The notes under the pieces: model-generated | Told to the model about the DNA's origin: nothing | The model's database searches: none | The model's input: the letters and a program-made list of their open reading frames with translations, nothing else | In this document: piece after piece, positions 12,901 to 60,999 of the stretch | Layout: each line of letters begins with the position of its first letter | Numbering within the stretch: position 1 is the first letter of the stretch | Translations under genes and position numbers: made by a program | NCBI GenBank assembly: GCA_019828595.1 | Contig: JAHQRK010000016.1 | Coordinates: 1,736,001-1,800,000, forward strand | From: Aphanomyces cochlioides | Taxonomy: Eukaryota; Oomycota; Saprolegniomycetes; Saprolegniales; Verrucalvaceae | Direction of reading: 5' to 3' | DNA length: 64,000 nt

Positions 12901-15673
12901 ATGCCGCCGGTGTGCTTAATTAGACAAGTTGCCGATGGCCTTGAAACGTGCCCTGATGGCCTTGCGTGAGTTCCATGGCTTGATACGAATATTAAGCATG
13001 TACACTTGTGTATAGACTTCTCCAATCTCTCAAGGAAGAACCAGTCGCAGTGATTTGCTTGGCAGGACAATACAGGTAGCGCGTTGCCACATCAGAACTC
13101 TTGCTGAGCAAGTGATACACCTCTAGAACGGGAAAGAGCTTCTTCTTGAATCAAATGTGCCGCAATTCATCATTGAAGCATACCCCATCAAACGAAGGAT
13201 TCGTTGTTGGCCCCACAACCGAGTCGTGCACACGAGGCATATGGATTTGGGATGCCAATCAACGAAATGGACGGGGTGAAAAAATCTTGCTCATGGACAC
13301 AGAAGGAATTGCATCGACAGATAATGATGAGACGTACGATGCCAAGATCTTCTCCTTAGGGCTACTCCTCAGCTCTGTTTTTGTTTTCAATACTATGGGT
13401 GTAATTGACGAAGGTGCGATTGACAGGCAAGTGACATTTCTCGTAAGACAATCTAAATGACGTCCACTGCAGATTATTTCTCGTCTCTGAATTGACAAAA
13501 CATGTGTGCATCCATGACCACGGCGTTGGAAAGAGTGCTGGAGACTCCATTCAGACCTTGTCTGATGATTATGTTATGGATGAGATAAAGAGTGTTAGTG
13601 AGGATGCTTTGGCACCGCACTTCCCTCCGTTTGTGTGGCTCTTGAGGGATTTCCTGTTGGATATTCAAGACAGTGGAGAACAGCTGACTCCAAACGCATA
13701 CCTGGAACGCTCACTGGAGTCAAGGGAAGGCGCTTCCAAGCGAATTCAAGAGAGAAATCGAATTCGACGCTCAATTCGAACGCTTTTTACACACCGCGAA
13801 TGGTACAAGTTGTTGATCTCTTCAAAACCCTTATTTGTGTATGATAGTATGACCTTGGTACGACCAGCGACAGATGAAGATAAGTTACGCCACGCCAGTC
13901 TTCTCCCAGACGACGAGTTGCGCCCCGAATTCCTTGTTCAAATGCACGCAATTCGAGAGCGTTTGCTTGATATCGCGCGTCCAAAACGTGTCCTAAATCA
14001 AGTCATTGATGGGACCAAACTAAGTCACCTCGTCGAATGCTACGTAAATACCATGAATAGCGGAGTTGTTCCTGACATTAAAGCTGCTTGGGATTATGTG
14101 AGTGATGTCACATGCGAAGCAGCGTGCTTTCATGCGATTGAGACGTACAAGCAAGTTATGGCAACCAATAACTCCATGGCACAACCAGAATTTGAACGTG
14201 TGTACAAGGAAGCACAAGAAGCTGCCTTGAATATCTTCAAGAAAGAATCAGTAGAAGGCGAGGCGCGGAAACGATGCTTTCAAACATTAAAGCAGACAAT
14301 TGCGCAGGACAAAACGCAACAAATTGCTGCTTTACAACAAAAATCTGCTGAATTTTGTACCACACTCTTGGAGAAACTCTTGCATCAACTTGTCAAGTGC
14401 CCGATTGAAAATGGAGAATGGGACGATGCAAAAGGATTTGTTCTAGTTGACCGACTTGCACCTCTGTTTAATGCCTATGATAAAGATGGCGATGGGCCTT
14501 CAAAAATGAAAACGCTGTTGCACTTCGTCAAGACAGACCTGTTGGCCATGGTAGAGCTCTTATTTGTACGCATGATGAATCGGTACGATGCGCTGTTGGA
14601 AAGCACAAAAAAAGCAGCTGATGAAACTATTCGAGTGCGTGACCTTCAATCATTACTTCGATAACTATACTCTGATAGGAAAGCGAGAACGCGAGGATGA
14701 TTGTCGAGAAAGAGTGTCACAAGTTTCAAATGGAGAGCACTCGGCTCATCGGTGTCGTAGCAACGTTGGAAGAAAAGTTGGAGAATGCACAAGCGCAAAT
14801 AGTGCAGTTAAAAGACGTGCAAAATGAGTTGCAAGCACAGCTACGGACGAGCGATGAGAAAAGAAAGACCCAGAAGATAGAATTCGAGTCACTCAAAACT
14901 CAGCACGCATCTCTAGAAAATGATCAAACGAAATTGCAGTCACAACTGGACCTGACACAAGAATCTCTACGACAAAGTAATTTCAAGGTGGTTGTTTTAT
15001 GGACGAACTAAGGTGTTTGTGTGGTACAGGTAATGAAGAGAAGGAATCGACGCGAGCACAATTGACATCCCAGCTAAATGAAGAACGAGAGGAAAGAACC
15101 AAGGAGCGAGAGCTTTCGATTTCGAATTTGGCCAAACAAGCCGCGGAACTTCATGCCGTGCAACGAAATCTCAAGCTCCGCGCATCGGAATTGGAAGAAT
15201 CCCAGCGGCAAAACACCCTGCTGACAAAAGAGCGCGACATCTTGTCTTCTAAACTGCAAGATCTCCTGAATGTCCACGAAGAATTATCCACAAACTTGCA
15301 CTCGATATCTGAATCAAACGATGCATTTGCTCAAGAAAAAGCACGACTGCAGAGTAGGTGTGAACGTCTAGAGCAGGAATTGGGCTCCTTGAACGAGCGA
15401 TTTCAAGTCGAAATTGTGTTGGAGCGGTGCTGTGCGGAAGTGGTCAAGCAAATTGAGGGAGAGAAGGTGCGGAGACATTTAGCTCGGTTGATGCTCATAT
15501 GTGTCTAGACCATACACACCTTGATCGAAGAGAAAGCGACGCTCCAAGAAACTTTGGGCGATCTGCATCTGAAGATATCTTCGTTGCCAGATTTTTACCA
15601 GCGTCAAGTCTTTTGTGCCGAAGAGCCCGTGCCAGACTTTTTCGAAGCACTCACATCCTTGATGGGGAAGTAG
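12901..15673 (+). CDS. guanylate-binding-protein-like large GTPase with long coiled-coil tail
   Basis: Starts at ATG 12901 (MPPVCLIRQVADGL). After two short introns the P-loop reads AGQYRTGKSFFLNQM, split by an intron after GQYR. The switch region FVVGPTTESCTRGIWIWD and the LLMDTEGIAS G3 motif follow, then FPPFVWLLRDFLLDI with the RD-type G4 motif and PNAYLE, all hallmarks of the GBP/atlastin (GB1/RHD3) class. Helical middle domain to about 14660. After a splice the tail (14690-15460) is continuous heptad-rich coiled coil, ending PDFFEALTSLMGK at TAG 15671. The intron after AIDR (about 13427-13472) appears to use a GCAAGT donor. Such GTPases act on membranes or in defence; the role here is inferred only from family. 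The 3' end lies 27 bp from the next gene's stop. Confidence 0.85.
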
Positions 15674-28766: not shown

Positions 28767-30297
28767 GTTTGAAAAGAAATCATAGACGCAACATGTCTAT
28801 CGTTAACATCGTGATACGATCGCACGTTTCTCGATGCCGCAACGACATACAGATATGTGAGACCATCATATCTACCAACTCTGAAGTCTTTATCTCATCG
28901 AGATCTTGTGTTGGGGAATAATATGAGTTGCTAAGATACTGTGCTGAAAAGAAATTATAGACGCAAGCATGTATTATCATCTACTTATCAATGCAATTGC
29001 CACGGCGTAGAATAACTTGAGCCATTCTTGTTGGCATGCCTTCGACAAGATCTTGTAGATACTCTTGACTTATTTCACTCCAAGATTTCATGATTTGGGC
29101 TTTCAAATCAGCCTTGGTTTCAAATTGTCGCCCATTCGCATAGACTTTCCTCGTTAGAACCCCCCAAACATTTTCAATGGGGTTCAAATCGGGGCTCTTA
29201 GCGGGCCAAGGCATAGTTGGCCATGGCAGATCACTCAGAAAATCCATTGTCGATCGCGATCGATGGATCGAAGCGTTGTCTTGTTGAAAAATGGCGCCAC
29301 GATTTTGCGCCAAATCTTCAAGTTCGTTCATTGCAGGTACCAGATAGGTCCGCAATGTCTCCTGGTACTTAATAGAGTCTTGTCTTCCTTCGAGGAAAGC
29401 AAGATCTGTCTTGTTGTAGTGGATAATGGCAGCCAAGAGAAATACCGATCCACCGCCAGAAACCCTCTTGGAGAACGTTTCGACCTCATGGCGAATATCA
29501 TGCCAGTAGTACTGGCAGCCGTCAGGTCCATCCAGATTGAACTTCTTTTCATCGGTGAACATTGTCATCTTCATTTGGCCATGGCGATTGAGATATTTGG
29601 AGGCGAATTCAACACGCGCTTTCTTGTGCTCGGTCGACAGACGTGGGTTTGAGCGGCGTTTGATGTACTTTGCGAATTTAGACATTTTGAGAACATTAAG
29701 AATAGTAGTTACTTTACCATTAAGTGCAGCAGAGATCTGTGCAGATGACTTTCCCTTGCGTGTAGCTTGTCGGAATACCCAACGTATCTCCCGGCGAGTG
29801 AGCTTCACGCGTCTTCCGGCCTTCTTTTTCGGTGTTTTTCGATTTAAATTGCAACAAAAGTTCGAACGAGCTTCTCACTGCGCCCAATGGCTCTTCCAAT
29901 CCAACGGAGAGACTTTTTTCGTGAAGATAAGCCATAATTTGTCCCTTTTCAACATCAGTGATGTTTTTGCCGTGTGGCATGTTGATGTATGAAGCGCAGG
30001 GCGCACTCAGTGCAGCCTCTATGCAGGGAAATGAGCGTAATCAATATGATTACTGTAGAAGCTTCCTATTGGCTTAAATTGTACATGGACTAAAATTGCG
30101 TCTATAATTTCTTTTCAGCACCATATCTCAAAAAGTAAAACAACTTCTCAACACAGCATCTCTTGACCGCAAGGCCTTGAGAGTTGATGCATAGGATAGT
30201 TTCACATGTCGTTATGTGCTAACGGCACCGCGGAACACGTCCTGTTGTCACGATGTCAAAGAAAAACTTGGTGCGTCTATGATTTCTTTTCAAACTG
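28767..30297 (-). mobile_element. Tc1-like DNA transposon B with IR/DR ends
   Basis: Flanked by TA (28765-28766 and 30298-30299). The outer repeat GAAAAGAAATCATAGACGC lies at both tips in inverted orientation, and an inner near-copy (GAAAAGAAATTATAGACGC) lies about 175-180 bp inside each end (near 28948 and 30115). Length 1,531 bp, almost the same as element A, but TIRs and transposase sequence differ, so it is another family with the same IR/DR plan. Confidence 0.85.
28981..29980 (-). pseudogene. Tc1-like DD34E transposase B, catalytic domain open, N-terminus frameshifted
   Basis: Starts MPHGKNITDVEKGQIMAYL at 29980. The helix-turn-helix region then needs several frame changes between about 29905 and 29810 (RWIGRAIGRSEKLVRTF lies in another frame). 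From about 29808 one frame is open to 28981: LTRREIRWVFRQAT (second HTH), MTMFTDEKKFNLDGPDG (Asp), IFQQDNASIHRSRS (Asp), SPDLNPIENVWG (Glu), 34 residues apart. It ends RRGNCIDK. The DDE domain has no stop, so decay is more recent than in element A. Confidence 0.85.
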
Positions 30298-40739: not shown

Positions 40740-40930
40740 ACATTCTCCGGCTTTTGCTTGACGGTATCCGTAATTTCAAGTCTTGTGCTGGACGAACGTC
40801 AAGCATTTTCGACACGTGGGTATTGTACAGTATACATAAATCAAGTATTCGATTGAGTGGATGAAATTTGCTTGACGGACATACAACACTCTTTCATTGG
40901 TAGTTTAATTTACGTTTTGCGTCAAGGAAG

Positions 40931-42924
40931 ATGCAAAGGGATACAAGCATTCAGGCGCTGCGGGACAATCGAGTCTCAAGGAACATGAGTGCGGGCTACA
41001 AGAGTGGCGTGAATGTGATAAAAAGTGGATATTGGATCATGGAGACGCCTCCATGATCGACGAGGATGGTAACATTGATCTCGATGTATTTGGATATGGC
41101 GAGTTTCTCCAGTTTATTGAATGGACGGTTCGACACACCAACAAAAAGCCCGGAACTCTGTCAGGATACCGCTCTGCTCTTCGGCACTACTATCGCGATG
41201 CAGGTAGAGCAGCGCCGATTGAGTTTGACGACGACATAAAGGAGATTTTTCAAGGTAAGCTAGTATTCTGCGAATTAAGTTGCACTCATTAAAATTTGTA
41301 AGGTATACGACGTATGTTTGCCGACGAGGAGCAGCTCTTATCCTCAAGGGACTCGGGGAAGAGACCTCTGGGTTACTCCCTGTATTCTGCTTTGTGTCAT
41401 CGGTCGCTTTCGATGTAGGACGGTGGCTTTGCCCATCACTATTTAGTTCTCTCCTGGAATTTGATGTGTCGCTCTCGTTCAACTCAAACAATCCGCTTGG
41501 ACCACATAACCTTCGAAGAAGATGCAATCGGTGTCGTCTTTTATAAAAGCAAAACGGACCAGGGTGGAATGAAACGTCGTGATCCAAAACATATCTATTC
41601 GAATCCAATGGAACCAACTACTTGTGTAGTCCTTGCTCTGGCAGTGTATCTCTCCTGCAATCCAACCCTTGTGAATGGCTTTTTGTTTCCTGGCTCCAAC
41701 CAAAGAGACCGCTTTGATAAGACTCTACAACGTTTGCTTGGTGATATCACTGAGTCTCGTGGAGAAGTGGTCTCAATTAATGAAATTGGAACGCACTCTA
41801 TACGCAAGGGAGCCGCTACGTTCGCTTGTTCTGGCTCCACTAGTGGGCCATTCATTATTAGTGTGTGTATTCGATGTGGATGGAGTATTGGACATGTTCT
41901 TGAACGATACATGCATTATGAAAAGGCAGGAGACCAATTCTTGGGTCGTGTCATTGCTGGTCTGCCGTTGAACTCGAGTAAATTTGCTTGCCTCCCCCCA
42001 CACTTTGATATTGTTTGTCCTCCTGTCGTTGATGAAAGACTACGCCTCATGTTTCCAAGTCTTGCCGCTGTCCCGGCGTTAACCTCTGTCCTGCAACTCT
42101 GCATCGCGTCGTTGGTTTTCCACAGTCAATTTTTGTTTAGAGAACTGCCCCACCGACATCCTCTCCTTGCTACGCCAATCTTCCGAAATGAGACACTAAT
42201 GCTGTCTCCCCGATCGTTTGTGATGGTTGAATCATCTACTTTGCATCCCACAGGCATCCCACCACATGCGCAGCTCCATGTTGGTCTTGAAAATACACTC
42301 CATGTCCTTGGCAAACTCCCCGACACTGTGGCTGAACGAGTGGAACAGATCATAGAAGAAAATGGTTTGACGGCTGGAAACATTACTCCTCAGTTTCTCA
42401 ACTCTACTCTTGAAACTATTCTACAGAGTATGCGCATCGGTGGACCTGCACATAGTCCTTCTCTAACCTCTACAGTGGACGATCATGGCTCAAAATTGCA
42501 TGTATGGAGTGGCTGTCTCCGAAAACTACCCCAAGGATTTTGTTTTCCCTCCGTTGATTTGTCGAGCGCATGGCAACTTTGGTGGCTAGGCAACACTCAC
42601 TTGGGCTGGCCACCATTTCCACCATTTCTTGATACGATAGATTTCAATATCTCTACGCAACGACGTCAACTTACAGAATGGAAATTCACCATGAATTACC
42701 TCAGAACCACCTTTGAACGAACGTCGCGCACGAAAATGTCTACAAAGCCATCTGAGATTAAGGTTTCAAAGGCATTTGAAATTGTCTTGCCTCATGTAAA
42801 CTCCATTTGTTCTGCACATGGCGCAAACTCGGGCAAACGACGCGTCTCCCAACTCAAACTCTTGACGGTAGTCCGAGATCTGCGCAAGCACGCTCGTTCA
42901 CAACTCCAAAACTCGAGCGATTGA
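40931..42924 (+). pseudogene. array unit 1: Crypton-like tyrosine recombinase, broken
   Basis: Exon 1 starts ATG 40931 (MQRDTSIQALRDNRVS) and must change frame by -1 at the A5 run 41020-41024 to continue as WILDHGDASMIDEDG, FLQFIEWTVRHTNKKPGTLS (core-binding domain). A 48-nt intron follows (41255-41302, GTAAGC...TTGTAAG). Exon 2 continues GIRRMFADEEQLL, meets an in-frame TAG at 41416-41418, then reads FAHHYLVLSWNLMCRSRST (Arg block), YKSKTDQ (Lys), THSIRKGAATF (HxxR) and RCGWSIGHVLERYMHY (Trp/His position and Tyr nucleophile). The last 280 residues contain KLPQGFCFPSVDLSSAWQLW and WWLGN, resembling the DNA-binding C-terminus of Cryptons. All catalytic residues are present; the ORF is not continuous. 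This copy has PPFPPF and Gln in the RRQLTEWK segment, and a T for A just after the left junction (TCTTGTGCTGG). Confidence 0.85.
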
Positions 42925-42960
42925 AAGTAGACTGTAGTAATTTCAGCCAATAAAACCTCA

Positions 42961-43180
42961 CTTGACGTCCATCCAGCAAATTCCAATCACAATACATTCT
43001 CCGGCTTTTGCTTGACGGTATCCGTAATTTCAAGTCATGTGCTGGACGAACGTCAAGCATTTTCGACACGTGGGTATTGTACAGTATACATAAATCAAGT
43101 ATTCGATTGAGTGGATGAAATTTGCTTGACGGACATACAACACTCTTTCATTGGTAGTTTAATTTACGTTTTGCGTCAAG
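42961..43180. promoter_or_regulatory. inter-unit spacer with five CTTGACG heptamers around the ACA junction
   Basis: Shown for the unit 1/2 boundary and repeated at every boundary. CTTGACG occurs at 42961 (+), 43011 (+), 43051 (-), 43125 (+) and 43174 (-). The ACA junction (42994-42996) lies between the first two. The spacer also contains the AATAAA (42949) of the preceding unit and must hold the promoter of the next, whose ATG is at 43185. The heptamers are candidate recombinase-binding or promoter elements. Confidence 0.5.
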
Positions 43181-43184
43181 GAAG

Positions 43185-45178
43185 ATGCAAAGGGATACAA
43201 GCATTCAGGCGCTGCGGGACAATCGAGTCTCAAGGAACATGAGTGCGGGCTACAAGAGTGGCGTGAATGTGATAAAAAGTGGATATTGGATCATGGAGAC
43301 GCCTCCATGATCGACGAGGATGGTAACATTGATCTCGATGTATTTGGATATGGCGAGTTTCTCCAGTTTATTGAATGGACGGTTCGACACACCAACAAAA
43401 AGCCCGGAACTCTGTCAGGATACCGCTCTGCTCTTCGGCACTACTATCGCGATGCAGGTAGAGCAGCGCCGATTGAGTTTGACGACGACATAAAGGAGAT
43501 TTTTCAAGGTAAGCTAGTATTCTGCGAATTAAGTTGCACTCATTAAAATTTGTAAGGTATACGACGTATGTTTGCCGACGAGGAGCAGCTCTTATCCTCA
43601 AGGGACTCGGGGAAGAGACCTCTGGGTTACTCCCTGTATTCTGCTTTGTGTCATCGGTCGCTTTCGATGTAGGACGGTGGCTTTGCCCATCACTATTTAG
43701 TTCTCTCCTGGAATTTGATGTGTCGCTCTCGTTCAACTCAAACAATCCGCTTGGACCACATAACCTTCGAAGAAGATGCAATCGGTGTCGTCTTTTATAA
43801 AAGCAAAACGGACCAGGGTGGAATGAAACGTCGTGATCCAAAACATATCTATTCGAATCCAATGGAACCAACTACTTGTGTAGTCCTTGCTCTGGCAGTG
43901 TATCTCTCCTGCAATCCAACCCTTGTGAATGGCTTTTTGTTTCCTGGCTCCAACCAAAGAGACCGCTTTGATAAGACTCTACAACGTTTGCTTGGTGATA
44001 TCACTGAGTCTCGTGGAGAAGTGGTCTCAATTAATGAAATTGGAACGCACTCTATACGCAAGGGAGCCGCTACGTTCGCTTGTTCTGGCTCCACTAGTGG
44101 GCCATTCATTATTAGTGTGTGTATTCGATGTGGATGGAGTATTGGACATGTTCTTGAACGATACATGCATTATGAAAAGGCAGGAGACCAATTCTTGGGT
44201 CGTGTCATTGCTGGTCTGCCGTTGAACTCGAGTAAATTTGCTTGCCTCCCCCCACACTTTGATATTGTTTGTCCTCCTGTCGTTGATGAAAGACTACGCC
44301 TCATGTTTCCAAGTCTTGCCGCTGTCCCGGCGTTAACCTCTGTCCTGCAACTCTGCATCGCGTCGTTGGTTTTCCACAGTCAATTTTTGTTTAGAGAACT
44401 GCCCCACCGACATCCTCTCCTTGCTACGCCAATCTTCCGAAATGAGACACTAATGCTGTCTCCCCGATCGTTTGTGATGGTTGAATCATCTACTTTGCAT
44501 CCCACAGGCATCCCACCACATGCGCAGCTCCATGTTGGTCTTGAAAATACACTCCATGTCCTTGGCAAACTCCCCGACACTGTGGCTGAACGAGTGGAAC
44601 AGATCATAGAAGAAAATGGTTTGACGGCTGGAAACATTACTCCTCAGTTTCTCAACTCTACTCTTGAAACTATTCTACAGAGTATGCGCATCGGTGGACC
44701 TGCACATAGTCCTTCTCTAACCTCTACAGTGGACGATCATGGCTCAAAATTGCATGTATGGAGTGGCTGTCTCCGAAAACTACCCCAAGGATTTTGTTTT
44801 CCCTCCGTTGATTTGTCGAGCGCATGGCAACTTTGGTGGCTAGGCAACACTCACTTGGGCTGGCCACCATTTCCACCATTTCTTGATACGATAGATTTCA
44901 ATATCTCTACGCAACGACGTCGACTTACAGAATGGAAATTCACCATGAATTACCTCAGAACCACCTTTGAACGAACGTCGCGCACGAAAATGTCTACAAA
45001 GCCATCTGAGATTAAGGTTTCAAAGGCATTTGAAATTGTCTTGCCTCATGTAAACTCCATTTGTTCTGCACATGGCGCAAACTCGGGCAAACGACGCGTC
45101 TCCCAACTCAAACTCTTGACGGTAGTCCGAGATCTGCGCAAGCACGCTCGTTCACAACTCCAAAACTCGAGCGATTGA
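43185..45178 (+). pseudogene. array unit 2: Crypton-like tyrosine recombinase, broken
   Basis: Same structure, intron, A5 frameshift and in-frame TAG as unit 1. Unit-specific state: keeps the three-base-longer PPFPPF, has RRRLTEWK (Arg), HITFEE and RFDKT, and the CACATAG variant shared with units 1 and 4. Confidence 0.85.
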
Positions 45179-45438
45179 AAGTAGACTGTAGTAATTTCAG
45201 CCAATAAAACCTCACTTGACGTCCATCCAGCAAATTCCAATCACAATACATTCTCCGGCTTTTGCTTGACGGTATCCGTAATTTCAAGTCATGTGCTGGA
45301 CGAACGTCAAGCATTTTCGACACGTGGGTATTGTACAGTATACATAAATCAAGTATTCGATTGAGTGGATGAAATTTGCTTGACGGACATACAACACTCT
45401 TTCATTGGTAGTTTAATTTACGTTTTGCGTCAAGGAAG

Positions 45439-47429
45439 ATGCAAAGGGATACAAGCATTCAGGCGCTGCGGGACAATCGAGTCTCAAGGAACATGAGTGC
45501 GGGCTACAAGAGTGGCGTGAATGTGATAAAAAGTGGATATTGGATCATGGAGACGCCTCCATGATCGACGAGGATGGTAACATTGATCTCGATGTATTTG
45601 GATATGGCGAGTTTCTCCAGTTTATTGAATGGACGGTTCGACACACCAACAAAAAGCCCGGAACTCTGTCAGGATACCGCTCTGCTCTTCGGCACTACTA
45701 TCGCGATGCAGGTAGAGCAGCGCCGATTGAGTTTGACGACGACATAAAGGAGATTTTTCAAGGTAAGCTAGTATTCTGCGAATTAAGTTGCACTCATTAA
45801 AATTTGTAAGGTATACGACGTATGTTTGCCGACGAGGAGCAGCTCTTATCCTCAAGGGACTCGGGGAAGAGACCTCTGGGTTACTCCCTGTATTCTGCTT
45901 TGTGTCATCGGTCGCTTTCGATGTAGGACGGTGGCTTTGCCCATCACTATTTAGTTCTCTCCTGGAATTTGATGTGTCGCTCTCGTTCAACTCAAACAAT
46001 CCGCTTGGACCACATAACCTTCGAAGAAGATGCAATCGGTGTCGTCTTTTATAAAAGCAAAACGGACCAGGGTGGAATGAAACGTCGTGATCCAAAACAT
46101 ATCTATTCGAATCCAATGGAACCAACTACTTGTGTAGTCCTTGCTCTGGCAGTGTATCTCTCCTGCAATCCAACCCTTGTGAATGGCTTTTTGTTTCCTG
46201 GCTCCAACCAAAGAGACCGCTTTGATAAGACTCTACAACGTTTGCTTGGTGATATCACTGAGTCTCGTGGAGAAGTGGTCTCAATTAATGAAATTGGAAC
46301 GCACTCTATACGCAAGGGAGCCGCTACGTTCGCTTGTTCTGGCTCCACTAGTGGGCCATTCATTATTAGTGTGTGTATTCGATGTGGATGGAGTATTGGA
46401 CATGTTCTTGAACGATACATGCATTATGAAAAGGCAGGAGACCAATTCTTGGGTCGTGTCATTGCTGGTCTGCCGTTGAACTCGAGTAAATTTGCTTGCC
46501 TCCCCCCACACTTTGATATTGTTTGTCCTCCTGTCGTTGATGAAAGACTACGCCTCATGTTTCCAAGTCTTGCCGCTGTCCCGGCGTTAACCTCTGTCCT
46601 GCAACTCTGCATCGCGTCGTTGGTTTTCCACAGTCAATTTTTGTTTAGAGAACTGCCCCACCGACATCCTCTCCTTGCTACGCCAATCTTCCGAAATGAG
46701 ACACTAATGCTGTCTCCCCGATCGTTTGTGATGGTTGAATCATCTACTTTGCATCCCACAGGCATCCCACCACATGCGCAGCTCCATGTTGGTCTTGAAA
46801 ATACACTCCATGTCCTTGGCAAACTCCCCGACACTGTGGCTGAACGAGTGGAACAGATCATAGAAGAAAATGGTTTGACGGCTGGAAACATTACTCCTCA
46901 GTTTCTCAACTCTACTCTTGAAACTATTCTACAGAGTATGCGCATCGGTGGACCTGCACACAGTCCTTCTCTAACCTCTACAGTGGACGATCATGGCTCA
47001 AAATTGCATGTATGGAGTGGCTGTCTCCGAAAACTACCCCAAGGATTTTGTTTTCCCTCCGTTGATTTGTCGAGCGCATGGCAACTTTGGTGGCTAGGCA
47101 ACACTCACTTGGGCTGGCCACCATTTCGATTTCTTGATACGATAGATTTCAATATCTCTACGCAACGACGTCGACTTACAGAATGGAAATTCACCATGAA
47201 TTACCTCAGAACCACCTTTGAACGAACGTCGCGCACGAAAATGTCTACAAAGCCATCTGAGATTAAGGTTTCAAAGGCATTTGAAATTGTCTTGCCTCAT
47301 GTAAACTCCATTTGTTCTGCACATGGCGCAAACTCGGGCAAACGACGCGTCTCCCAACTCAAACTCTTGACGGTAGTCCGAGATCTGCGCAAGCACGCTC
47401 GTTCACAACTCCAAAACTCGAGCGATTGA
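45439..47429 (+). pseudogene. array unit 3: Crypton-like tyrosine recombinase, broken
   Basis: Same two lesions. First unit with the three-base-shorter PPFRF form. It has HITFEE and RFDKT like units 1-2 but CACACAG like units 5-9, and RRRLTEWK. It is therefore intermediate between the two array halves. Confidence 0.85.
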
Positions 47430-47689
47430 AAGTAGACTGTAGTAATTTCAGCCAATAAAACCTCACTTGACGTCCATCCAGCAAATTCCAATCACAATAC
47501 ATTCTCCGGCTTTTGCTTGACGGTATCCGTAATTTCAAGTCATGTGCTGGACGAACGTCAAGCATTTTCGACACGTGGGTATTGTACAGTATACATAAAT
47601 CAAGTATTCGATTGAGTGGATGAAATTTGCTTGACGGACATACAACACTCTTTCATTGGTAGTTTAATTTACGTTTTGCGTCAAGGAAG

Positions 47690-49674
47690 ATGCAAAGGGA
47701 TACAAGCATTCAGGCGCTGCGGGACAATCGAGTCTCAAGGAACATGAGTGCGGGCTACAAGAGTGGCGTGAATGTGATAAAAAGTGGATATTGGATCATG
47801 GAGACGCCTCCATGATCGACGAGGATGGTAACATTGATCTCGATGTATTTGGATATGGCGAGTTTCTCCAGTTTATTGAATGGACGGTTCGACACACCAA
47901 CAAAAAGCCCGGAACTCTGTCAGGATACCGCTCTGCTCTTCGGCACTACTATCGCGATGCAGGTAGAGCAGCGCCGATTGAGTTTGACGACGACATAAAG
48001 GAGATTTTTCAAGGTAAGCTAGTATTCTGCGAATTAAGTTGCACTCATTAAAATTTGTAAGGTATACGACGTATGTTTGCCGACGAGGAGCAGCTCTTAT
48101 CCTCAAGGGACTCGGGGAAGAGACCTCTGGGTTACTCCCTGTATTCTGCTTTGTGTCATCGGTCGCTTTCGATGTAGGACGGTGGCTTTGCCCATCACTA
48201 TTTAGTTCTCTCCTGGAATTTGATGTGTCGCTCTCGTTCAACTCAAACAATCCGCTTGGACCACATATCCTTCGAAGAAGATGCAATCGGTGTCGTCTTT
48301 TATAAAAGCAAAACGGACCAGGGTGGAATGAAACGTCGTGATCCAAAACATATCTATTCGAATCCAATGGAACCAACTACTTGTGTAGTCCTTGCTCTGG
48401 CAGTGTATCTCTCCTGCAATCCAACCCTTGTGAATGGCTTTTTGTTTCCTGGCTCCAACCAAAGAGACCGCTTTGGTAAGACTCTACAACGTTTGCTTGG
48501 TGATATCACTGAGTCTGAAGTGGTCTCAATTAATGAAATTGGAACGCACTCTATACGCAAGGGAGCCGCTACGTTCGCTTGTTCTGGCTCCACTAGTGGG
48601 CCATTCATTATTAGTGTGTGTATTCGATGTGGATGGAGTATTGGACATGTTCTTGAACGATACATGCATTATGAAAAGGCAGGAGACCAATTCTTGGGTC
48701 GTGTCATTGCTGGTCTGCCGTTGAACTCGAGTAAATTTGCTTGCCTCCCCCCACACTTTGATATTGTTTGTCCTCCTGTCGTTGATGAAAGACTACGCCT
48801 CATGTTTCCAAGTCTTGCCGCTGTCCCGGCGTTAACCTCTGTCCTGCAACTCTGCATCGCGTCGTTGGTTTTCCACAGTCAATTTTTGTTTAGAGAACTG
48901 CCCCACCGACATCCTCTCCTTGCTACGCCAATCTTCCGAAATGAGACACTAATGCTGTCTCCCCGATCGTTTGTGATGGTTGAATCATCTACTTTGCATC
49001 CCACAGGCATCCCACCACATGCGCAGCTCCATGTTGGTCTTGAAAATACACTCCATGTCCTTGGCAAACTCCCCGACACTGTGGCTGAACGAGTGGAACA
49101 GATCATAGAAGAAAATGGTTTGACGGCTGGAAACATTACTCCTCAGTTTCTCAACTCTACTCTTGAAACTATTCTACAGAGTATGCGCATCGGTGGACCT
49201 GCACATAGTCCTTCTCTAACCTCTACAGTGGACGATCATGGCTCAAAATTGCATGTATGGAGTGGCTGTCTCCGAAAACTACCCCAAGGATTTTGTTTTC
49301 CCTCCGTTGATTTGTCGAGCGCATGGCAACTTTGGTGGCTAGGCAACACTCACTTGGGCTGGCCACCATTTCGATTTCTTGATACGATAGATTTCAATAT
49401 CTCTACGCAACGACGTCAACTTACAGAATGGAAATTCACCATGAATTACCTCAGAACCACCTTTGAACGAACGTCGCGCACGAAAATGTCTACAAAGCCA
49501 TCTGAGATTAAGGTTTCAAAGGCATTTGAAATTGTCTTGCCTCATGTAAACTCCATTTGTTCTGCACATGGCGCAAACTCGGGCAAACGACGCGTCTCCC
49601 AACTCAAACTCTTGACGGTAGTCCGAGATCTGCGCAAGCACGCTCGTTCACAACTCCAAAACTCGAGCGATTGA
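47690..49674 (+). pseudogene. array unit 4: Crypton-like tyrosine recombinase, broken, 6-bp deletion
   Basis: Same two lesions, plus a unique in-frame 6-bp loss (two residues, Arg-Gly) in the TESRGEVV segment near 48517. It has HISFEE and RFGKT like the right half, but CACATAG like units 1-2, which makes it a mosaic. Confidence 0.85.
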
Positions 49675-49934
49675 AAGTAGACTGTAGTAATTTCAGCCAA
49701 TAAAACCTCACTTGACGTCCATCCAGCAAATTCCAATCACAATACATTCTCCGGCTTTTGCTTGACGGTATCCGTAATTTCAAGTCATGTGCTGGACGAA
49801 CGTCAAGCATTTTCGACACGTGGGTATTGTACAGTATACATAAATCAAGTATTCGATTGAGTGGATGAAATTTGCTTGACGGACATACAACACTCTTTCA
49901 TTGGTAGTTTAATTTACGTTTTGCGTCAAGGAAG

Positions 49935-51925
49935 ATGCAAAGGGATACAAGCATTCAGGCGCTGCGGGACAATCGAGTCTCAAGGAACATGAGTGCGGGC
50001 TACAAGAGTGGCGTGAATGTGATAAAAAGTGGATATTGGATCATGGAGACGCCTCCATGATCGACGAGGATGGTAACATTGATCTCGATGTATTTGGATA
50101 TGGCGAGTTTCTCCAGTTTATTGAATGGACGGTTCGACACACCAACAAAAAGCCCGGAACTCTGTCAGGATACCGCTCTGCTCTTCGGCACTACTATCGC
50201 GATGCAGGTAGAGCAGCGCCGATTGAGTTTGACGACGACATAAAGGAGATTTTTCAAGGTAAGCTAGTATTCTGCGAATTAAGTTGCACTCATTAAAATT
50301 TGTAAGGTATACGACGTATGTTTGCCGACGAGGAGCAGCTCTTATCCTCAAGGGACTCGGGGAAGAGACCTCTGGGTTACTCCCTGTATTCTGCTTTGTG
50401 TCATCGGTCGCTTTCGATGTAGGACGGTGGCTTTGCCCATCACTATTTAGTTCTCTCCTGGAATTTGATGTGTCGCTCTCGTTCAACTCAAACAATCCGC
50501 TTGGACCACATATCCTTCGAAGAAGATGCAATCGGTGTCGTCTTTTATAAAAGCAAAACGGACCAGGGTGGAATGAAACGTCGTGATCCAAAACATATCT
50601 ATTCGAATCCAATGGAACCAACTACTTGTGTAGTCCTTGCTCTGGCAGTGTATCTCTCCTGCAATCCAACCCTTGTGAATCGCTTTTTGTTTCCTGGCTC
50701 CAACCAAAGAGACCGCTTTGATAAGACTCTACAACGTTTGCTTGGTGATATCACTGAGTCTCGTGGAGAAGTGGTCTCAATTAATGAAATTGGAACGCAC
50801 TCTATACGCAAGGGAGCCGCTACGTTCGCTTGTTCTGGCTCCACTAGTGGGCCATTCATTATTAGTGTGTGTATTCGATGTGGATGGAGTATTGGACATG
50901 TTCTTGAACGATACATGCATTATGAAAAGGCAGGAGACCAATTCTTGGGTCGTGTCATTGCTGGTCTGCCGTTGAACTCGAGTAAATTTGCTTGCCTCCC
51001 CCCACACTTTGATATTGTTTGTCCTCCTGTCGTTGATGAAAGACTACGCCTCATGTTTCCAAGTCTTGCCGCTGTCCCGGCGTTAACCTCTGTCCTGCAA
51101 CTCTGCATCGCGTTGTTGGTTTTCCACAGTCAATTTTTGTTTAGAGAACTGCCCCACCGACATCCTCTCCTTGCTACGCCAATCTTCCGAAATGAGACAC
51201 TAATGCTGTCTCCCCGATCGTTTGTGATGGTTGAATCATCTACTTTGCATCCCACAGGCATCCCACCACATGCGCAGCTCCATGTTGGTCTTGAAAATAC
51301 ACTCCATGTCCTTGGCAAACTCCCCGACACTGTGGCTGAACGAGTGGAACAGATCATAGAAGAAAATGGTTTGACGGCTGGAAACATTACTCCTCAGTTT
51401 CTCAACTCTACTCTTGAAACTATTCTACAGAGTATGCGCATCGGTGGACCTGCACACAGTCCTTCTCTAACCTCTACAGTGGACGATCATGGCTCAAAAT
51501 TGCATGTATGGAGTGGCTGTCTCCGAAAACTACCCCAAGGATTTTGTTTTCCCTCCGTTGATTTGTCGAGCGCATGGCAACTTTGGTGGCTAGGCAACAC
51601 TCACTTGGGCTGGCCACCATTTCGATTTCTTGATACGATAGATTTCAATATCTCTACGCAACGACGTCAACTTACAGAATGGAAATTCACCATGAATTAC
51701 CTCAGAACCACCTTTGAACGAACGTCGCGCACGAAAATGTCTACAAAGCCATCTGAGATTAAGGTTTCAAAGGCATTTGAAATTGTCTTGCCTCATGTAA
51801 ACTCCATTTGTTCTGCACATGGCGCAAACTCGGGCAAACGACGCGTCTCCCAACTCAAACTCTTGACGGTAGTCCGAGATCTGCGCAAGCACGCTCGTTC
51901 ACAACTCCAAAACTCGAGCGATTGA
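49935..51925 (+). pseudogene. array unit 5: Crypton-like tyrosine recombinase, broken
   Basis: Same two lesions. Unique substitutions: Gly to Arg in VNRFLFPG (near 50680) and Ser to Leu in LCIALLVF (near 51114). It has HISFEE with RFDKT, a combination not found in its neighbours. Confidence 0.85.
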
Positions 51926-52185
51926 AAGTAGACTGTAGTAATTTCAGCCAATAAAACCTCACTTGACGTCCATCCAGCAAATTCCAATCACAATACATTC
52001 TCCGGCTTTTGCTTGACGGTATCCGTAATTTCAAGTCATGTGCTGGACGAACGTCAAGCATTTTCGACACGTGGGTATTGTACAGTATACATAAATCAAG
52101 TATTCGATTGAGTGGATGAAATTTGCTTGACGGACATACAACACTCTTTCATTGGTAGTTTAATTTACGTTTTGCGTCAAGGAAG

Positions 52186-54176
52186 ATGCAAAGGGATACA
52201 AGCATTCAGGCGCTGCGGGACAATCGAGTCTCAAGGAACATGAGTGCGGGCTACAAGAGTGGCGTGAATGTGATAAAAAGTGGATATTGGATCATGGAGA
52301 CGCCTCCATGATCGACGAGGATGGTAACATTGATCTCGATGTATTTGGATATGGCGAGTTTCTCCAGTTTATTGAATGGACGGTTCGACACACCAACAAA
52401 AAGCCCGGAACTCTGTCAGGATACCGCTCTGCTCTTCGGCACTACTATCGCGATGCAGGTAGAGCAGCGCCGATTGAGTTTGACGACGACATAAAGGAGA
52501 TTTTTCAAGGTAAGCTAGTATTCTGCGAATTAAGTTGCACTCATTAAAATTTGTAAGGTATACGACGTATGTTTGCCGACGAGGAGCAGCTCTTATCCTC
52601 AAGGGACTCGGGGAAGAGACCTCTGGGTTACTCCCTGTATTCTGCTTTGTGTCATCGGTCGCTTTCGATGTAGGACGGTGGCTTTGCCCATCACTATTTA
52701 GTTCTCTCCTGGAATTTGATGTGTCGCTCTCGTTCAACTCAAACAATCCGCTTGGACCACATATCCTTCGAAGAAGATGCAATCGGTGTCGTCTTTTATA
52801 AAAGCAAAACGGACCAGGGTGGAATGAAACGTCGTGATCCAAAACATATCTATTCGAATCCAATGGAACCAACTACTTGTGTAGTCCTTGCTCTGGCAGT
52901 GTATCTCTCCTGCAATCCAACCCTTGTGAATGGCTTTTTGTTTCCTGGCTCCAACCAAAGAGACCGCTTTGGTAAGACTCTACAACGTTTGCTTGGTGAT
53001 ATCACTGAGTCTCGTGGAGAAGTGGTCTCAATTAATGAAATTGGAACGCACTCTATACGCAAGGGAGCCGCTACGTTCGCTTGTTCTGGCTCCACTAGTG
53101 GGCCATTCATTATTAGTGTGTGTATTCGATGTGGATGGAGTATTGGACATGTTCTTGAACGATACATGCATTATGAAAAGGCAGGAGACCAATTCTTGGG
53201 TCGTGTCATTGCTGGTCTGCCGTTGAACTCGAGTAAATTTGCTTGCCTCCCCCCACACTTTGATATTGTTTGTCCTCCTGTCGTTGATGAAAGACTACGC
53301 CTCATGTTTCCAAGTCTTGCCGCTGTCCCGGCGTTAACCTCTGTCCTGCAACTCTGCATCGCGTCGTTGGTTTTCCACAGTCAATTTTTGTTTAGAGAAC
53401 TGCCCCACCGACATCCTCTCCTTGCTACGCCAATCTTCCGAAATGAGACACTAATGCTGTCTCCCCGATCGTTTGTGATGGTTGAATCATCTACTTTGCA
53501 TCCCACAGGCATCCCACCACATGCGCAGCTCCATGTTGGTCTTGAAAATACACTCCATGTCCTTGGCAAACTCCCCGACACTGTGGCTGAACGAGTGGAA
53601 CAGATCATAGAAGAAAATGGTTTGACGGCTGGAAACATTACTCCTCAGTTTCTCAACTCTACTCTTGAAACTATTCTACAGAGTATGCGCATCGGTGGAC
53701 CTGCACACAGTCCTTCTCTAACCTCTACAGTGGACGATCATGGCTCAAAATTGCATGTATGGAGTGGCTGTCTCCGAAAACTACCCCAAGGATTTTGTTT
53801 TCCCTCCGTTGATTTGTCGAGCGCATGGCAACTTTGGTGGCTAGGCAACACTCACTTGGGCTGGCCACCATTTCGATTTCTTGATACGATAGATTTCAAT
53901 ATCTCTACGCAACGACGTCGACTTACAGAATGGAAATTCACCATGAATTACCTCAGAACCACCTTTGAACGAACGTCGCGCACGAAAATGTCTACAAAGC
54001 CATCTGAGATTAAGGTTTCAAAGGCATTTGAAATTGTCTTGCCTCATGTAAACTCCATTTGTTCTGCACATGGCGCAAACTCGGGCAAACGACGCGTCTC
54101 CCAACTCAAACTCTTGACGGTAGTCCGAGATCTGCGCAAGCACGCTCGTTCACAACTCCAAAACTCGAGCGATTGA
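52186..54176 (+). pseudogene. array unit 6: Crypton-like tyrosine recombinase, broken
   Basis: Same two lesions. HISFEE, RFGKT, PPFRF, and RRRLTEWK (Arg), the last shared only with units 2 and 3. Confidence 0.85.
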
Positions 54177-54436
54177 AAGTAGACTGTAGTAATTTCAGCC
54201 AATAAAACCTCACTTGACGTCCATCCAGCAAATTCCAATCACAATACATTCTCCGGCTTTTGCTTGACGGTATCCGTAATTTCAAGTCATGTGCTGGACG
54301 AACGTCAAGCATTTTCGACACGTGGGTATTGTACAGTATACATAAATCAAGTATTCGATTGAGTGGATGAAATTTGCTTGACGGACATACAACACTCTTT
54401 CATTGGTAGTTTAATTTACGTTTTGCGTCAAGGAAG

Positions 54437-56454
54437 ATGCAAAGGGATACAAGCATTCAGGCGCTGCGGGACAATCGAGTCTCAAGGAACATGAGTGCGG
54501 GCTACAAGAGTGGCGTGAATGTGATAAAAAGTGGATATTGGATCATGGAGACGCCTCCATGATCGACGAGGATGGTAACATTGATCTCGATGTATTTGGA
54601 TATGGCGAGTTTCTCCAGTTTATTGAATGGACGGTTCGACACACCAACAAAAAGCCCGGAACTCTGTCAGGATACCGCTCTGCTCTTCGGCACTACTATC
54701 GCGATGCAGGTAGAGCAGCGCCGATTGAGTTTGACGACGACATAAAGGAGATTTTTCAAGGTAAGCTAGTATTCTGCGAATTAAGTTGCACTCATTAAAA
54801 TTTGTAAGGTATACGACGTATGTTTGCCGACGAGGAGCAGCTCTTATCCTCAAGGGACTCGGGGAAGAGACCTCTGGGTTACTCCCTGTATTCTGCTTTG
54901 TGTCATCGGTCGCTTTCGATGTAGGACGGTGGCTTTGCCCATCACTATTTAGTTCTCTCCTGGAATTTGATGTGTCGCTCTCGTTCAACTCAAACAATCC
55001 GCTTGGACCACATATCCTTCGAAGAAGATGCAATCGGTGTCGTCTTTTATAAAAGCAAAACGGACCAGGGTGGAATGAAACGTCGTGATCCAAAACATAT
55101 CTATTCGAATCCAATGGAACCAACTACTTGTGTAGTCCTTGCTCTGGCAGTGTATCTCTCCTGCAATCCAACCCTTGTGAATGGCTTTTTGTTTCCTGGC
55201 TCCAACCAAAGAGACCGCTTTGGTAAGACTCTACAACGTTTGCTTGGTGATATCACTGAGTCTCGTGGAGAAGTGGTCTCAATTAATGAAATTGGAACGC
55301 ACTCTATACGCAAGGGAGCCGCTACGTTCGCTTGTTCTGGCTCCACTAGTGGGCCATTCATTATTAGTGTGTGTATTCGATGTGGATGGAGTATTGGACA
55401 TGTTCTTGAACGATACATGCATTATGAAAAGGCAGGAGACCAATTCTTGGGTCGTGTCATTGCTGGTCTGCCGTTGAACTCGAGTAAATTTGCTTGCCTC
55501 CCCCCACACTTTGATATTGTTTGTCCTCCTGTCGTTGATGAAAGACTACGCCTCATGTTTCCAAGTCTTGCCGCTGTCCCGGCGTTAACCTCTGTCCTGC
55601 AACTCTGCATCGCGTCGTTGGTTTTCCACAGTCAATTTTTGTTTAGAGAACTGCCCCATCGACATCCTCTCCTTGCTACGCCAATCTTCCGAAATGAGAC
55701 ACTAATGCTGTCTCCCCGATCGTTTGTGATGGTTGAATCATCTACTTTGCATCCCACAGGCATCCCACCACATGCGCAGCTCCATGTTGGTCTTGAAAAT
55801 ACACTCCATGTCCTTGGCAAACTCCCCGACACTGTGGCTGAACGAGTGGAACAGATCATAGAAGAAAATGGTTTGACGGCTGGAAACATTACTCCTCAGT
55901 TTCTCAACTCTACTCTTGAAACTATTCTACAGAGTATGCGCATCGGTGGACCTGCACACAGTCCTTCTCTAACCTCTACAGTGGACGATCATGGCTCAAA
56001 ATTGCATGTATGGAGTGGCTGTCTCCGAAAACTACCCCAAGGATTTTGTTTTCCCTCCGTTGATTTGTCGAGCGCATGGCAACTTTGGTGGCTAGGCAAC
56101 ACTCACTTGGGCTGGCCACCATTTCGATTTCTTGATACGATAGATTTCAATATCTCTACGCAACGACGTCAACTTACAGAATGGAAATTCACCATGAATT
56201 ACCTCAGAACCACCTTTGAACGAACGTCGCGCACGAAAATGTCTACAAAGCCATCTGAGATTAAGGTTTCAAAGGCATTTGAAATTGTCTTGCCTCATGT
56301 AAACTCCATTTGTTCTGCACATGGCGCAAACGGGCAAACGACGCGTCTCCCAACTCAAACTCTTGACGGTAGTCCGAGATCTGCGCAAGCACGCTCGTTC
56401 ACAACTCCAAAACTCGAGCGATTGAAAGTAGACTGTAGTAATTTCAGCCAATAA
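54437..56454 (+). pseudogene. array unit 7: Crypton-like tyrosine recombinase, broken, with altered C-terminus
   Basis: Same two lesions as the others. A unique 2-bp deletion near 56331 (AACTCGGGC reduced to AACGGGC) shifts the last 40 codons, so the frame ends at 56454, 29 bp past the equivalent normal stop. A silent C to T change lies near 55659. Confidence 0.85.
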
Positions 56455-56685
56455 AACCTCACTTGACGTCCATCCAGCAAATTCCAATCACAATACATTC
56501 TCCGGCTTTTGCTTGACGGTATCCGTAATTTCAAGTCATGTGCTGGACGAACGTCAAGCATTTTCGACACGTGGGTATTGTACAGTATACATAAATCAAG
56601 TATTCGATTGAGTGGATGAAATTTGCTTGACGGACATACAACACTCTTTCATTGGTAGTTTAATTTACGTTTTGCGTCAAGGAAG

Positions 56686-58676
56686 ATGCAAAGGGATACA
56701 AGCATTCAGGCGCTGCGGGACAATCGAGTCTCAAGGAACATGAGTGCGGGCTACAAGAGTGGCGTGAATGTGATAAAAAGTGGATATTGGATCATGGAGA
56801 CGCCTCCATGATCGACGAGGATGGTAACATTGATCTCGATGTATTTGGATATGGCGAGTTTCTCCAGTTTATTGAATGGACGGTTCGACACACCAACAAA
56901 AAGCCCGGAACTCTGTCAGGATACCGCTCTGCTCTTCGGCACTACTATCGCGATGCAGGTAGAGCAGCGCCGATTGAGTTTGACGACGACATAAAGGAGA
57001 TTTTTCAAGGTAAGCTAGTATTCTGCGAATTAAGTTGCACTCATTAAAATTTGTAAGGTATACGACGTATGTTTGCCGACGAGGAGCAGCTCTTATCCTC
57101 AAGGGACTCGGGGAAGAGACCTCTGGGTTACTCCCTGTATTCTGCTTTGTGTCATCGGTCGCTTTCGATGTAGGACGGTGGCTTTGCCCATCACTATTTA
57201 GTTCTCTCCTGGAATTTGATGTGTCGCTCTCGTTCAACTCAAACAATCCGCTTGGACCACATATCCTTCGAAGAAGATGCAATCGGTGTCGTCTTTTATA
57301 AAAGCAAAACGGACCAGGGTGGAATGAAACGTCGTGATCCAAAACATATCTATTCGAATCCAATGGAACCAACTACTTGTGTAGTCCTTGCTCTGGCAGT
57401 GTATCTCTCCTGCAATCCAACCCTTGTGAATGGCTTTTTGTTTCCTGGCTCCAACCAAAGAGACCGCTTTGGTAAGACTCTACAACGTTTGCTTGGTGAT
57501 ATCACTGAGTCTCGTGGAGAAGTGGTCTCAATTAATGAAATTGGAACGCACTCTATACGCAAGGGAGCCGCTACGTTCGCTTGTTCTGGCTCCACTAGTG
57601 GGCCATTCATTATTAGTGTGTGTATTCGATGTGGATGGAGTATTGGACATGTTCTTGAACGATACATGCATTATGAAAAGGCAGGAGACCAATTCTTGGG
57701 TCGTGTCATTGCTGGTCTGCCGTTGAACTCGAGTAAATTTGCTTGCCTCCCCCCACACTTTGATATTGTTTGTCCTCCTGTCGTTGATGAAAGACTACGC
57801 CTCATGTTTCCAAGTCTTGCCGCTGTCCCGGCGTTAACCTCTGTCCTGCAACTCTGCATCGCGTCGTTGGTTTTCCACAGTCAATTTTTGTTTAGAGAAC
57901 TGCCCCACCGACATCCTCTCCTTGCTACGCCAATCTTCCGAAATGAGACACTAATGCTGTCTCCCCGATCGTTTGTGATGGTTGAATCATCTACTTTGCA
58001 TCCCACAGGCATCCCACCACATGCGCAGCTCCATGTTGGTCTTGAAAATACACTCCATGTCCTTGGCAAACTCCCCGACACTGTGGCTGAACGAGTGGAA
58101 CAGATCATAGAAGAAAATGGTTTGACGGCTGGAAACATTACTCCTCAGTTTCTCAACTCTACTCTTGAAACTATTCTACAGAGTATGCGCATCGGTGGAC
58201 CTGCACACAGTCCTTCTCTAACCTCTACAGTGGACGATCATGGCTCAAAATTGCATGTATGGAGTGGCTGTCTCCGAAAACTACCCCAAGGATTTTGTTT
58301 TCCCTCCGTTGATTTGTCGAGCGCATGGCAACTTTGGTGGCTAGGCAACACTCACTTGGGCTGGCCACCATTTCGATTTCTTGATACGATAGATTTCAAT
58401 ATCTCTACGCAACGACGTCAACTTACAGAATGGAAATTCACCATGAATTACCTCAGAACCACCTTTGAACGAACGTCGCGCACGAAAATGTCTACAAAGC
58501 CATCTGAGATTAAGGTTTCAAAGGCATTTGAAATTGTCTTGCCTCATGTAAACTCCATTTGTTCTGCACATGGCGCAAACTCGGGCAAACGACGCGTCTC
58601 CCAACTCAAACTCTTGACGGTAGTCCGAGATCTGCGCAAGCACGCTCGTTCACAACTCCAAAACTCGAGCGATTGA
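56686..58676 (+). pseudogene. array unit 8: Crypton-like tyrosine recombinase, broken
   Basis: Same two lesions. HISFEE, RFGKT, PPFRF, Gln in RRQLTEWK, CACACAG. It matches unit 9 almost everywhere. Confidence 0.85.
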
Positions 58677-58936
58677 AAGTAGACTGTAGTAATTTCAGCC
58701 AATAAAACCTCACTTGACGTCCATCCAGCAAATTCCAATCACAATACATTCTCCGGCTTTTGCTTGACGGTATCCGTAATTTCAAGTCATGTGCTGGACG
58801 AACGTCAAGCATTTTCGACACGTGGGTATTGTACAGTATACATAAATCAAGTATTCGATTGAGTGGATGAAATTTGCTTGACGGACATACAACACTCTTT
58901 CATTGGTAGTTTAATTTACGTTTTGCGTCAAGGAAG

Positions 58937-60927
58937 ATGCAAAGGGATACAAGCATTCAGGCGCTGCGGGACAATCGAGTCTCAAGGAACATGAGTGCGG
59001 GCTACAAGAGTGGCGTGAATGTGATAAAAAGTGGATATTGGATCATGGAGACGCCTCCATGATCGACGAGGATGGTAACATTGATCTCGATGTATTTGGA
59101 TATGGCGAGTTTCTCCAGTTTATTGAATGGACGGTTCGACACACCAACAAAAAGCCCGGAACTCTGTCAGGATACCGCTCTGCTCTTCGGCACTACTATC
59201 GCGATGCAGGTAGAGCAGCGCCGATTGAGTTTGACGACGACATAAAGGAGATTTTTCAAGGTAAGCTAGTATTCTGCGAATTAAGTTGCACTCATTAAAA
59301 TTTGTAAGGTATACGACGTATGTTTGCCGACGAGGAGCAGCTCTTATCCTCAAGGGACTCGGGGAAGAGACCTCTGGGTTACTCCCTGTATTCTGCTTTG
59401 TGTCATCGGTCGCTTTCGATGTAGGACGGTGGCTTTGCCCATCACTATTTAGTTCTCTCCTGGAATTTGATGTGTCGCTCTCGTTCAACTCAAACAATCC
59501 GCTTGGACCACATATCCTTCGAAGAAGATGCAATCGGTGTCGTCTTTTATAAAAGCAAAACGGACCAGGGTGGAATGAAACGTCGTGATCCAAAACATAT
59601 CTATTCGAATCCAATGGAACCAACTACTTGTGTAGTCCTTGCTCTGGCAGTGTATCTCTCCTGCAATCCAACCCTTGTGAATGGCTTTTTGTTTCCTGGC
59701 TCCAACCAAAGAGACCGCTTTGGTAAGACTCTACAACGTTTGCTTGGTGATATCACTGAGTCTCGTGGAGAAGTGGTCTCAATTAATGAAATTGGAACGC
59801 ACTCTATACGCAAGGGAGCCGCTACGTTCGCTTGTTCTGGCTCCACTAGTGGGCCATTCATTATTAGTGTGTGTATTCGATGTGGATGGAGTATTGGACA
59901 TGTTCTTGAACGATACATGCATTATGAAAAGGCAGGAGACCAATTCTTGGGTCGTGTCATTGCTGGTCTGCCGTTGAACTCGAGTAAATTTGCTTGCCTC
60001 CCCCCACACTTTGATATTGTTTGTCCTCCTGTCGTTGATGAAAGACTACGCCTCATGTTTCCAAGTCTTGCCGCTGTCCCGGCGTTAACCTCTGTCCTGC
60101 AACTCTGCATCGCGTCGTTGGTTTTCCACAGTCAATTTTTGTTTAGAGAACTGCCCCACCGACATCCTCTCCTTGCTACGCCAATCTTCCGAAATGAGAC
60201 ACTAATGCTGTCTCCCCGATCGTTTGTGATGGTTGAATCATCTACTTTGCATCCCACAGGCATCCCACCACATGCGCAGCTCCATGTTGGTCTTGAAAAT
60301 ACACTCCATGTCCTTGGCAAACTCCCCGACACTGTGGCTGAACGAGTGGAACAGATCATAGAAGAAAATGGTTTGACGGCTGGAAACATTACTCCTCAGT
60401 TTCTCAACTCTACTCTTGAAACTATTCTACAGAGTATGCGCATCGGTGGACCTGCACACAGTCCTTCTCTAACCTCTACAGTGGACGATCATGGCTCAAA
60501 ATTGCATGTATGGAGTGGCTGTCTCCGAAAACTACCCCAAGGATTTTGTTTTCCCTCCGTTGATTTGTCGAGCGCATGGCAACTTTGGTGGCTAGGCAAC
60601 ACTCACTTGGGCTGGCCACCATTTCGATTTCTTGATACGATAGATTTCAATATCTCTACGCAACGACGTCAACTTACGGAATGGAAATTCACCATGAATT
60701 ACCTCAGAACCACCTTTGAACGAACGTCGCGCACGAAAATGTCTACAAAGCCATCTGAGATTAAGGTTTCAAAGGCATTTGAAATTGTCTTGCCTCATGT
60801 AAACTCCATTTGTTCTGCACATGGCGCAAACTCGGGCAAACGACGCGTCTCCCAACTCAAACTCTTGACGGTAGTCCGAGATCTGCGCAAGCACGCTCGT
60901 TCACAACTCCAAAACTCGAGCGATTGA
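58937..60927 (+). pseudogene. array unit 9: Crypton-like tyrosine recombinase, broken
   Basis: Same two lesions. It differs from unit 8 by a silent A to G (CTTACGGAATGG, near 60678). Its spacer runs to CACAATACA and then single-copy DNA begins (GATTTACC, 61000 onward). Confidence 0.85.
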
Positions 60928-60999
60928 AAGTAGACTGTAGTAATTTCAGCCAATAAAACCTCACTTGACGTCCATCCAGCAAATTCCAATCACAATACA

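Follow-up and report, generated by a model that had tools for sequence, protein, structure and literature searches.

How does a transposable element come to stand in a chromosome as nine complete copies of itself, joined head to tail? The question is raised by positions 40740-60999 of the window (the whole 64,000-nucleotide stretch of DNA analysed here), which is part of contig C8 in the 76.2-Mb, 94-contig genome that we searched. In the assembly sequence, this region is an array of nine complete head-to-tail units of 2245-2254 bp in a single orientation, and unit-by-unit comparison found no partial units within it. The original prediction had described this arrangement, and the unit starts, spaced 2245-2254 bp apart, confirm it. 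Between any pair of units there are 1-6 substitutions (mean 3.6) and a few indels. The features of the array are:

40740..42993, plus strand, unit 1: 2254 bp; its left edge is ACA, with CA the only part conserved across loci
42994..45247, plus strand, unit 2: 2254 bp; its 3' part has a 3-bp insertion also found in unit 1
45248..47498, plus strand, unit 3: 2251 bp
47499..49743, plus strand, unit 4: 2245 bp; an in-frame 6-bp deletion
49744..51994, plus strand, unit 5: 2251 bp
51995..54245, plus strand, unit 6: 2251 bp
54246..56494, plus strand, unit 7: 2249 bp; a 2-bp deletion causes a frameshift near the C terminus (ORF of 509 codons)
56495..58745, plus strand, unit 8: 2251 bp
58746..60999, plus strand, unit 9: 2251 bp and the closing ACA
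41255..41302, plus strand, short intron in unit 1 (GT..AG, 48 bp), deduced from the reading frame and homologues
41416..41418, plus strand, in-frame TAG of unit 1, ahead of the catalytic part
43670, 45924, 48175, 50420, 52671, 54922, 57171 and 59422, plus strand, the same TAG in units 2-9
41419..42924, plus strand, catalytic-domain ORF of unit 1: 501 codons (498-509 in the other eight units)
42988..43004, plus strand, first of the eight inner junctions: CACAAT-ACA-TTCTCCGG, the form expected at the junction of a circular element

The triplet ACA stands at all ten edges. At the outer left junction the sequence is ...AATAACAC-ACA-TTCTCCGG, at each of the eight inner junctions it is ...CACAAT-ACA-TTCTCCGG, and at the right junction it is ...CACAAT-ACA-GATTTACC. 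The flanks are not repeated elsewhere within the window and, once the array is masked, the sole remaining window self-matches at E up to 1e-10 come from a minisatellite at 6292-6934; together these argue that the array is not a product of chance. The minisatellite itself has units of ~36 bp and matches itself at shifts of ~36 and multiples, with ~72% identity.

Each 2.25-kb unit contains a single long ORF plus a short first exon. The protein carries the conserved tyrosine-recombinase (YR) residues R-K-H-R-W-Y; R18, K45, H126, R129 and Y164 are present in 9/9 units, unit 4 having the last three displaced by 2. The best structural matches of its catalytic part are Flp, Ndc10, Xer and Cre, with Flp at the top and a best Foldseek E of 0.0019. 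Residues and structural matches alike uphold the view of the unit as a Crypton-like tyrosine-recombinase element. A Pfam search with the protein (P0001) returned no informative family, a PDB sequence search gave one weak and irrelevant match, and no relatives were confirmed in viral_contigs or genome_contigs. The named Crypton-like proteins recovered from Aphanomyces euteiches are distant from those of the window (best 61%, over part of the length). Elsewhere in the window, a P-type ATPase ORF is 99% identical to an A. euteiches protein, with A. stellatus and A. invadans next at 78-82%. This makes the host A. euteiches or a close relative, the distance of the Crypton-like proteins speaking against A. 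euteiches itself.

Is the array unique in this genome? A search for single copies and further arrays, as the original prediction had proposed, recovered six full and one partial dispersed copies of the array's family (96-98% identity), together with a second nine-unit array and two dimers. Three protein searches, in which the best 86 of 852, 88 of 771 and 88 of 775 candidates were scored, yielded at least 95 elements at at least 74 loci; the latter is a lower bound, since DNA searches add more (e.g., C20:261415). Head-to-tail sets occupy four of these loci, each belonging to a different one of four families. The three beyond the window are:

C45:2560001-2582620, array 2: nine units of another family, 2510-2532 bp each
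C45, dimer: units of 2264 bp
C25, dimer: units of 2234 bp

Chance would be expected to produce 0.09 pairs within 2.6 kb and, with random CA hits, ~0.0006 exactly abutting pairs. As a control, the best 150 of 767 matches to DDE_3 transposases hold two same-strand pairs less than 3 kb apart, and neither contains a repeated unit (five further same-strand pairs at 4.5-13.3 kb fall outside this comparison). A general tandem tendency of transposons in the assembly is rejected on the evidence of these two closest pairs. Four tandem sets among the 74 loci listed stand against none among the best 150 of 767 DDE_3 matches (Fisher P 0.011, on two incomplete lists). The second nine-unit array and the two dimers, whose ends are just as exact, suggest that tandem sets are a recurring habit of such elements and not a freak.

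The ends of the elements indicate the shared core. We compared 22 insertion loci, namely this array and 21 others, excluding an interrupted copy on C56. The outer left ends read N-CA, where N is A at 10 loci, C at 6, G at 3 and T at 3; the right ends read A-CA at 22/22 loci, those of L017 and L019 being degraded, and the inner junctions of all four tandem sets read A-CA in 18/18 cases. The original prediction of the same ACA at ten junctions is thus correct in that the triplet is present at all ten, but ACA is rejected as the shared core, since the base before CA varies at outer left ends (it is A here) and only CA is invariant across the 22 loci. Read from these sequences, the pattern of N-CA on the left and A-CA on the right and inside suggests that the A comes from the element and that CA is common to target and element. 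In array 2 the base at the outer left is T, and in the C25 set it is C, yet the inner junctions there are still A-CA; they are therefore not copies of the outer left junction. Such inner junctions would be expected from a circle junction or, equally, from exchange between attR and attL. That the array has exact element ends and circle-form junctions between units, as had been proposed, is supported by the ten junctions here and the 18 inner junctions overall.

These ends also bear on classification. Members of the Crypton superfamily share R-H-R-Y catalytic residues, use no second transposition enzyme and carry short direct repeats of 4-6 bp at both ends without terminal inverted repeats. A circular intermediate is a further hallmark, and the inner junctions here have the form that one would give. 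The R-H-R-Y residues are present here, and neither a reverse transcriptase (RT) nor a DDE family was found for P0001 (E up to 1) or in 37 aligned relatives (E up to 0.1). At the termini, by comparison, the common core is only CA at the 22 loci, and subterminal inverted arms occur in 3/4 families. These arms lie at one offset (+4), with shuffle P values of 0.06, 0.013 and 0.02, the first family thus reaching only 0.06; in the C25 family they are no better than shuffles, with 9/14 bases matching at the common offset. Three families have CATTC...ATA-CA as their ends, and the remaining one has CATAAT...ACA-CA. Stramenopile Cryptons, or CryptonS, are described by Kojima and Jurka 2011 (PMC3212892) as having terminal repeats of 5-6 bp, in the majority TATGG. 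Like CryptonS, the present element has a YR as its sole enzyme, a stramenopile host (Aphanomyces is an oomycete), no GCR1_C domain (37 proteins gave no match at E up to 0.1) and a short direct repeat at its tips. Unlike CryptonS as published there, its terminal core is CA, and terminal direct repeats of 5-6 bp, mostly TATGG, were not found; we therefore class it as a Crypton-like YR transposon and not as CryptonS.

Some shorter elements share the termini of the array's family. L016, L018, L020 (~0.94 kb) and L021 (1.85 kb) carry its left 77 bp and right 27-30 bp around interiors that do not match its own, and L019 is similar but has a worn right end. These elements, with their N-CA / A-CA ends, are putatively non-autonomous derivatives.

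The nine units descend from one copy. Nineteen substitutions are common to all of them and absent from 6/6 full dispersed copies, and one of these private changes is the in-frame TAG, found in 9/9 units and 0/7 dispersed copies. Against the seven dispersed copies the units form a single clade (support 100/100, with the bootstrap not settled), and array alleles occur in 0/7 of the copies compared, one of which is partial. At sites that vary inside the array, the dispersed copies covering each show one state only, which places the origin of the alternative state inside the array. Lesions of other kinds disrupt several of the dispersed copies. Changes in the catalytic ORF on the founder branch number 11 nonsynonymous and 2 synonymous, where 76% nonsynonymous is expected without selection; this is about the neutral expectation and gives no sign of selection. 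The array thus grew from one copy, apparently defective already, most simply in place.

The other sets resemble it in this respect, and in every one of the four the units are closer to one another than to any dispersed copy compared. Array 2 units have eight substitutions in common that are absent from the relatives compared, and its left-most unit alone keeps a 4-bp stretch present in relatives. The dimer units share eight and four changes absent from the two relatives compared per dimer; this comparison was made without an outgroup, and for the C45 dimer it took in the near-identical relatives other than C12. Three single copies (C26:282040-284303, C20:261415-263703 and C12:263674-265921) are 99-100% identical to the C45 dimer; no other dispersed copy seen, in whichever of the four families, is as close. 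In the family of array 2, L026 (C23:1143135-1145039) and L027 (C45:1112149-1114054) have the same missing and inverted internal segments, and seem to represent a rearranged element that moved as such.

After duplication, the units appear to have exchanged sequence. Five shared variants of the window array cluster in neighbouring units relative to shuffled orders (P 0.021), and 6/10 variant pairs occur in all four combinations, a pattern that takes recombination, conversion or recurrent mutation to produce. In array 2, three shared variants tend to lie in blocks (P 0.036, or 0.053 without its deletion), and one of three variant pairs shows all four combinations. The neighbour tests are modest, with five shared variants in one array and three in the other; within these small numbers, likeness of neighbours and mixed combinations are the trace left by unequal exchange. 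Unequal crossing-over, which had been offered as an alternative origin, fits the expansion of the array, as neighbours tend to be alike and variant patterns point to recombination between units.

Taken together, the best explanation of the array, in which we have moderate confidence, is an exact first duplication made by the recombinase, followed by expansion through unequal exchange. A Crypton-like YR transposon would have inserted at a CA dinucleotide in the oomycete chromosome and decayed in place, acquiring the in-frame stop. Recombinase from other copies, its putative source, may then have acted in trans on both ends of the decayed copy. The attR end on one sister chromatid may have recombined with the attL end on its sister, or an excised circle may have re-entered at the sister's end or next door; both routes would double the element with exact ends and without flanking DNA. 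From two adjacent copies onward homologous exchange would suffice, and unequal exchange with conversion could have produced nine units and kept them alike. A recombinase is implicated because at four loci the duplication breakpoints coincide exactly with the two ends of the element, and because the units of each set are one clone the donor is most simply the same locus. Since the founder was apparently unable to make a full-length recombinase, the enzyme would have come from another copy and worked in trans; such action is unnecessary if the stop arose only after the duplication and was spread by conversion.

The original prediction favored repeated insertion of circles. Exact ends and circle-form junctions agree with that proposal, but circles from elsewhere do not fit one clone with 19 private changes and a shared stop. 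Dispersed donors are rejected on the same private changes, the single clade and the lack of array alleles in the seven dispersed copies. A narrower version, in which monomer circles from the array or founder locus were serially inserted into the ends of an existing copy with recombinase in trans, accounts for circle-form inner junctions and for exact ends in 4/4 tandem sets, and SXT/R391-type YR elements of bacteria build tandem arrays according to PMC2786100. Circles from the dispersed pool would remain at odds with clonality, and circulating units would leave single copies with array alleles, which 0/7 dispersed copies compared (one partial) carry; we consider this route unlikely. One-step integration of a multimeric circle of the broken copy, as a rolling-circle or recombination product, would deliver clonality and exact ends at once, and both arrays have nine units, which may be coincidence. 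Variant patterns nevertheless show exchange after formation, two dimers exist, and the left-most unit of array 2 retains ancestral sequence, so that we regard such an event as improbable. Fewer copies in the real genome than in the assembly would be a still more improbable explanation: single-base deletions in array 2 could, at a guess, be assembly errors, but variant combinations differ between units, the flanks differ, and tandem sets occur at four loci of four families. That the host has kept the array for a domesticated DNA-binding or dosage function is very improbable: the catalytic ORF and the catalytic residues checked are retained in 9/9 units, but recent origin by itself accounts for the open frames, and the 11 nonsynonymous against 2 synonymous founder changes and the stop common to all units speak against it.

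The duplication and expansion that we favor have partial parallels. Flp, the best structural match of the catalytic part, has an amplification role for the yeast 2-micron plasmid, but that system is a plasmid with inverted sites and has no chromosomal array. Tandem prophages are site-specific arrays in bacteria whose members then undergo homologous recombination. Similarly, SXT/R391 integrative conjugative elements are known from PMC2786100 to build tandem arrays by successive transfer into a recipient, with homologous recombination between members; these are bacterial, large and of few copies. Among eukaryotes, the TATE element is already known to form tandem clusters within Leishmania braziliensis telomere repeats (PMC6681497). 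It is likewise a eukaryotic YR element in clusters, but a retroelement in telomere repeats, whereas the present array is YR-only, lies in a region with host-type genes and is the clone of a broken copy. No report of tandem Crypton arrays was apparent in the literature searched, which lay largely outside subscription journals; in the main text of PMC3212892, 'array' is absent and 'tandem' appears once, in a reference title.

Four exact-ended tandem sets, two of nine units, together with 22 insertion loci place the core at CA and display the recombination junction. Crypton transposition has so far been argued from analogy (a circle and a short core). The sets and loci also separate two steps that are usually confounded, an exact first duplication and a later expansion, and suggest a DNA-transposon route to long tandem arrays. 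With a founder that was apparently already broken, trans action, or conversion, becomes a testable claim. More tentatively, and with some doubt on our part, trans recombinase acting on the ends of immobile copies might drive exact tandem amplification generally in this genome: exchange between attR and attL of sister chromatids would multiply dead elements in place while emptying the site on the other chromatid, and would be a chromosomal equivalent, in eukaryotes, of bacterial YR-made arrays.

Finally, the window holds other genes of note. A Tc1-like DDE_3 transposase ORF on the minus strand (28981-29874) is the only transposase among ten non-array ORFs scanned, of 17 with at least 200 codons. 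An ORF at 13447-14664 encodes the guanylate-binding protein domains GBP and GBP_C; to our knowledge, a GBP-domain protein is unexpected in an oomycete.
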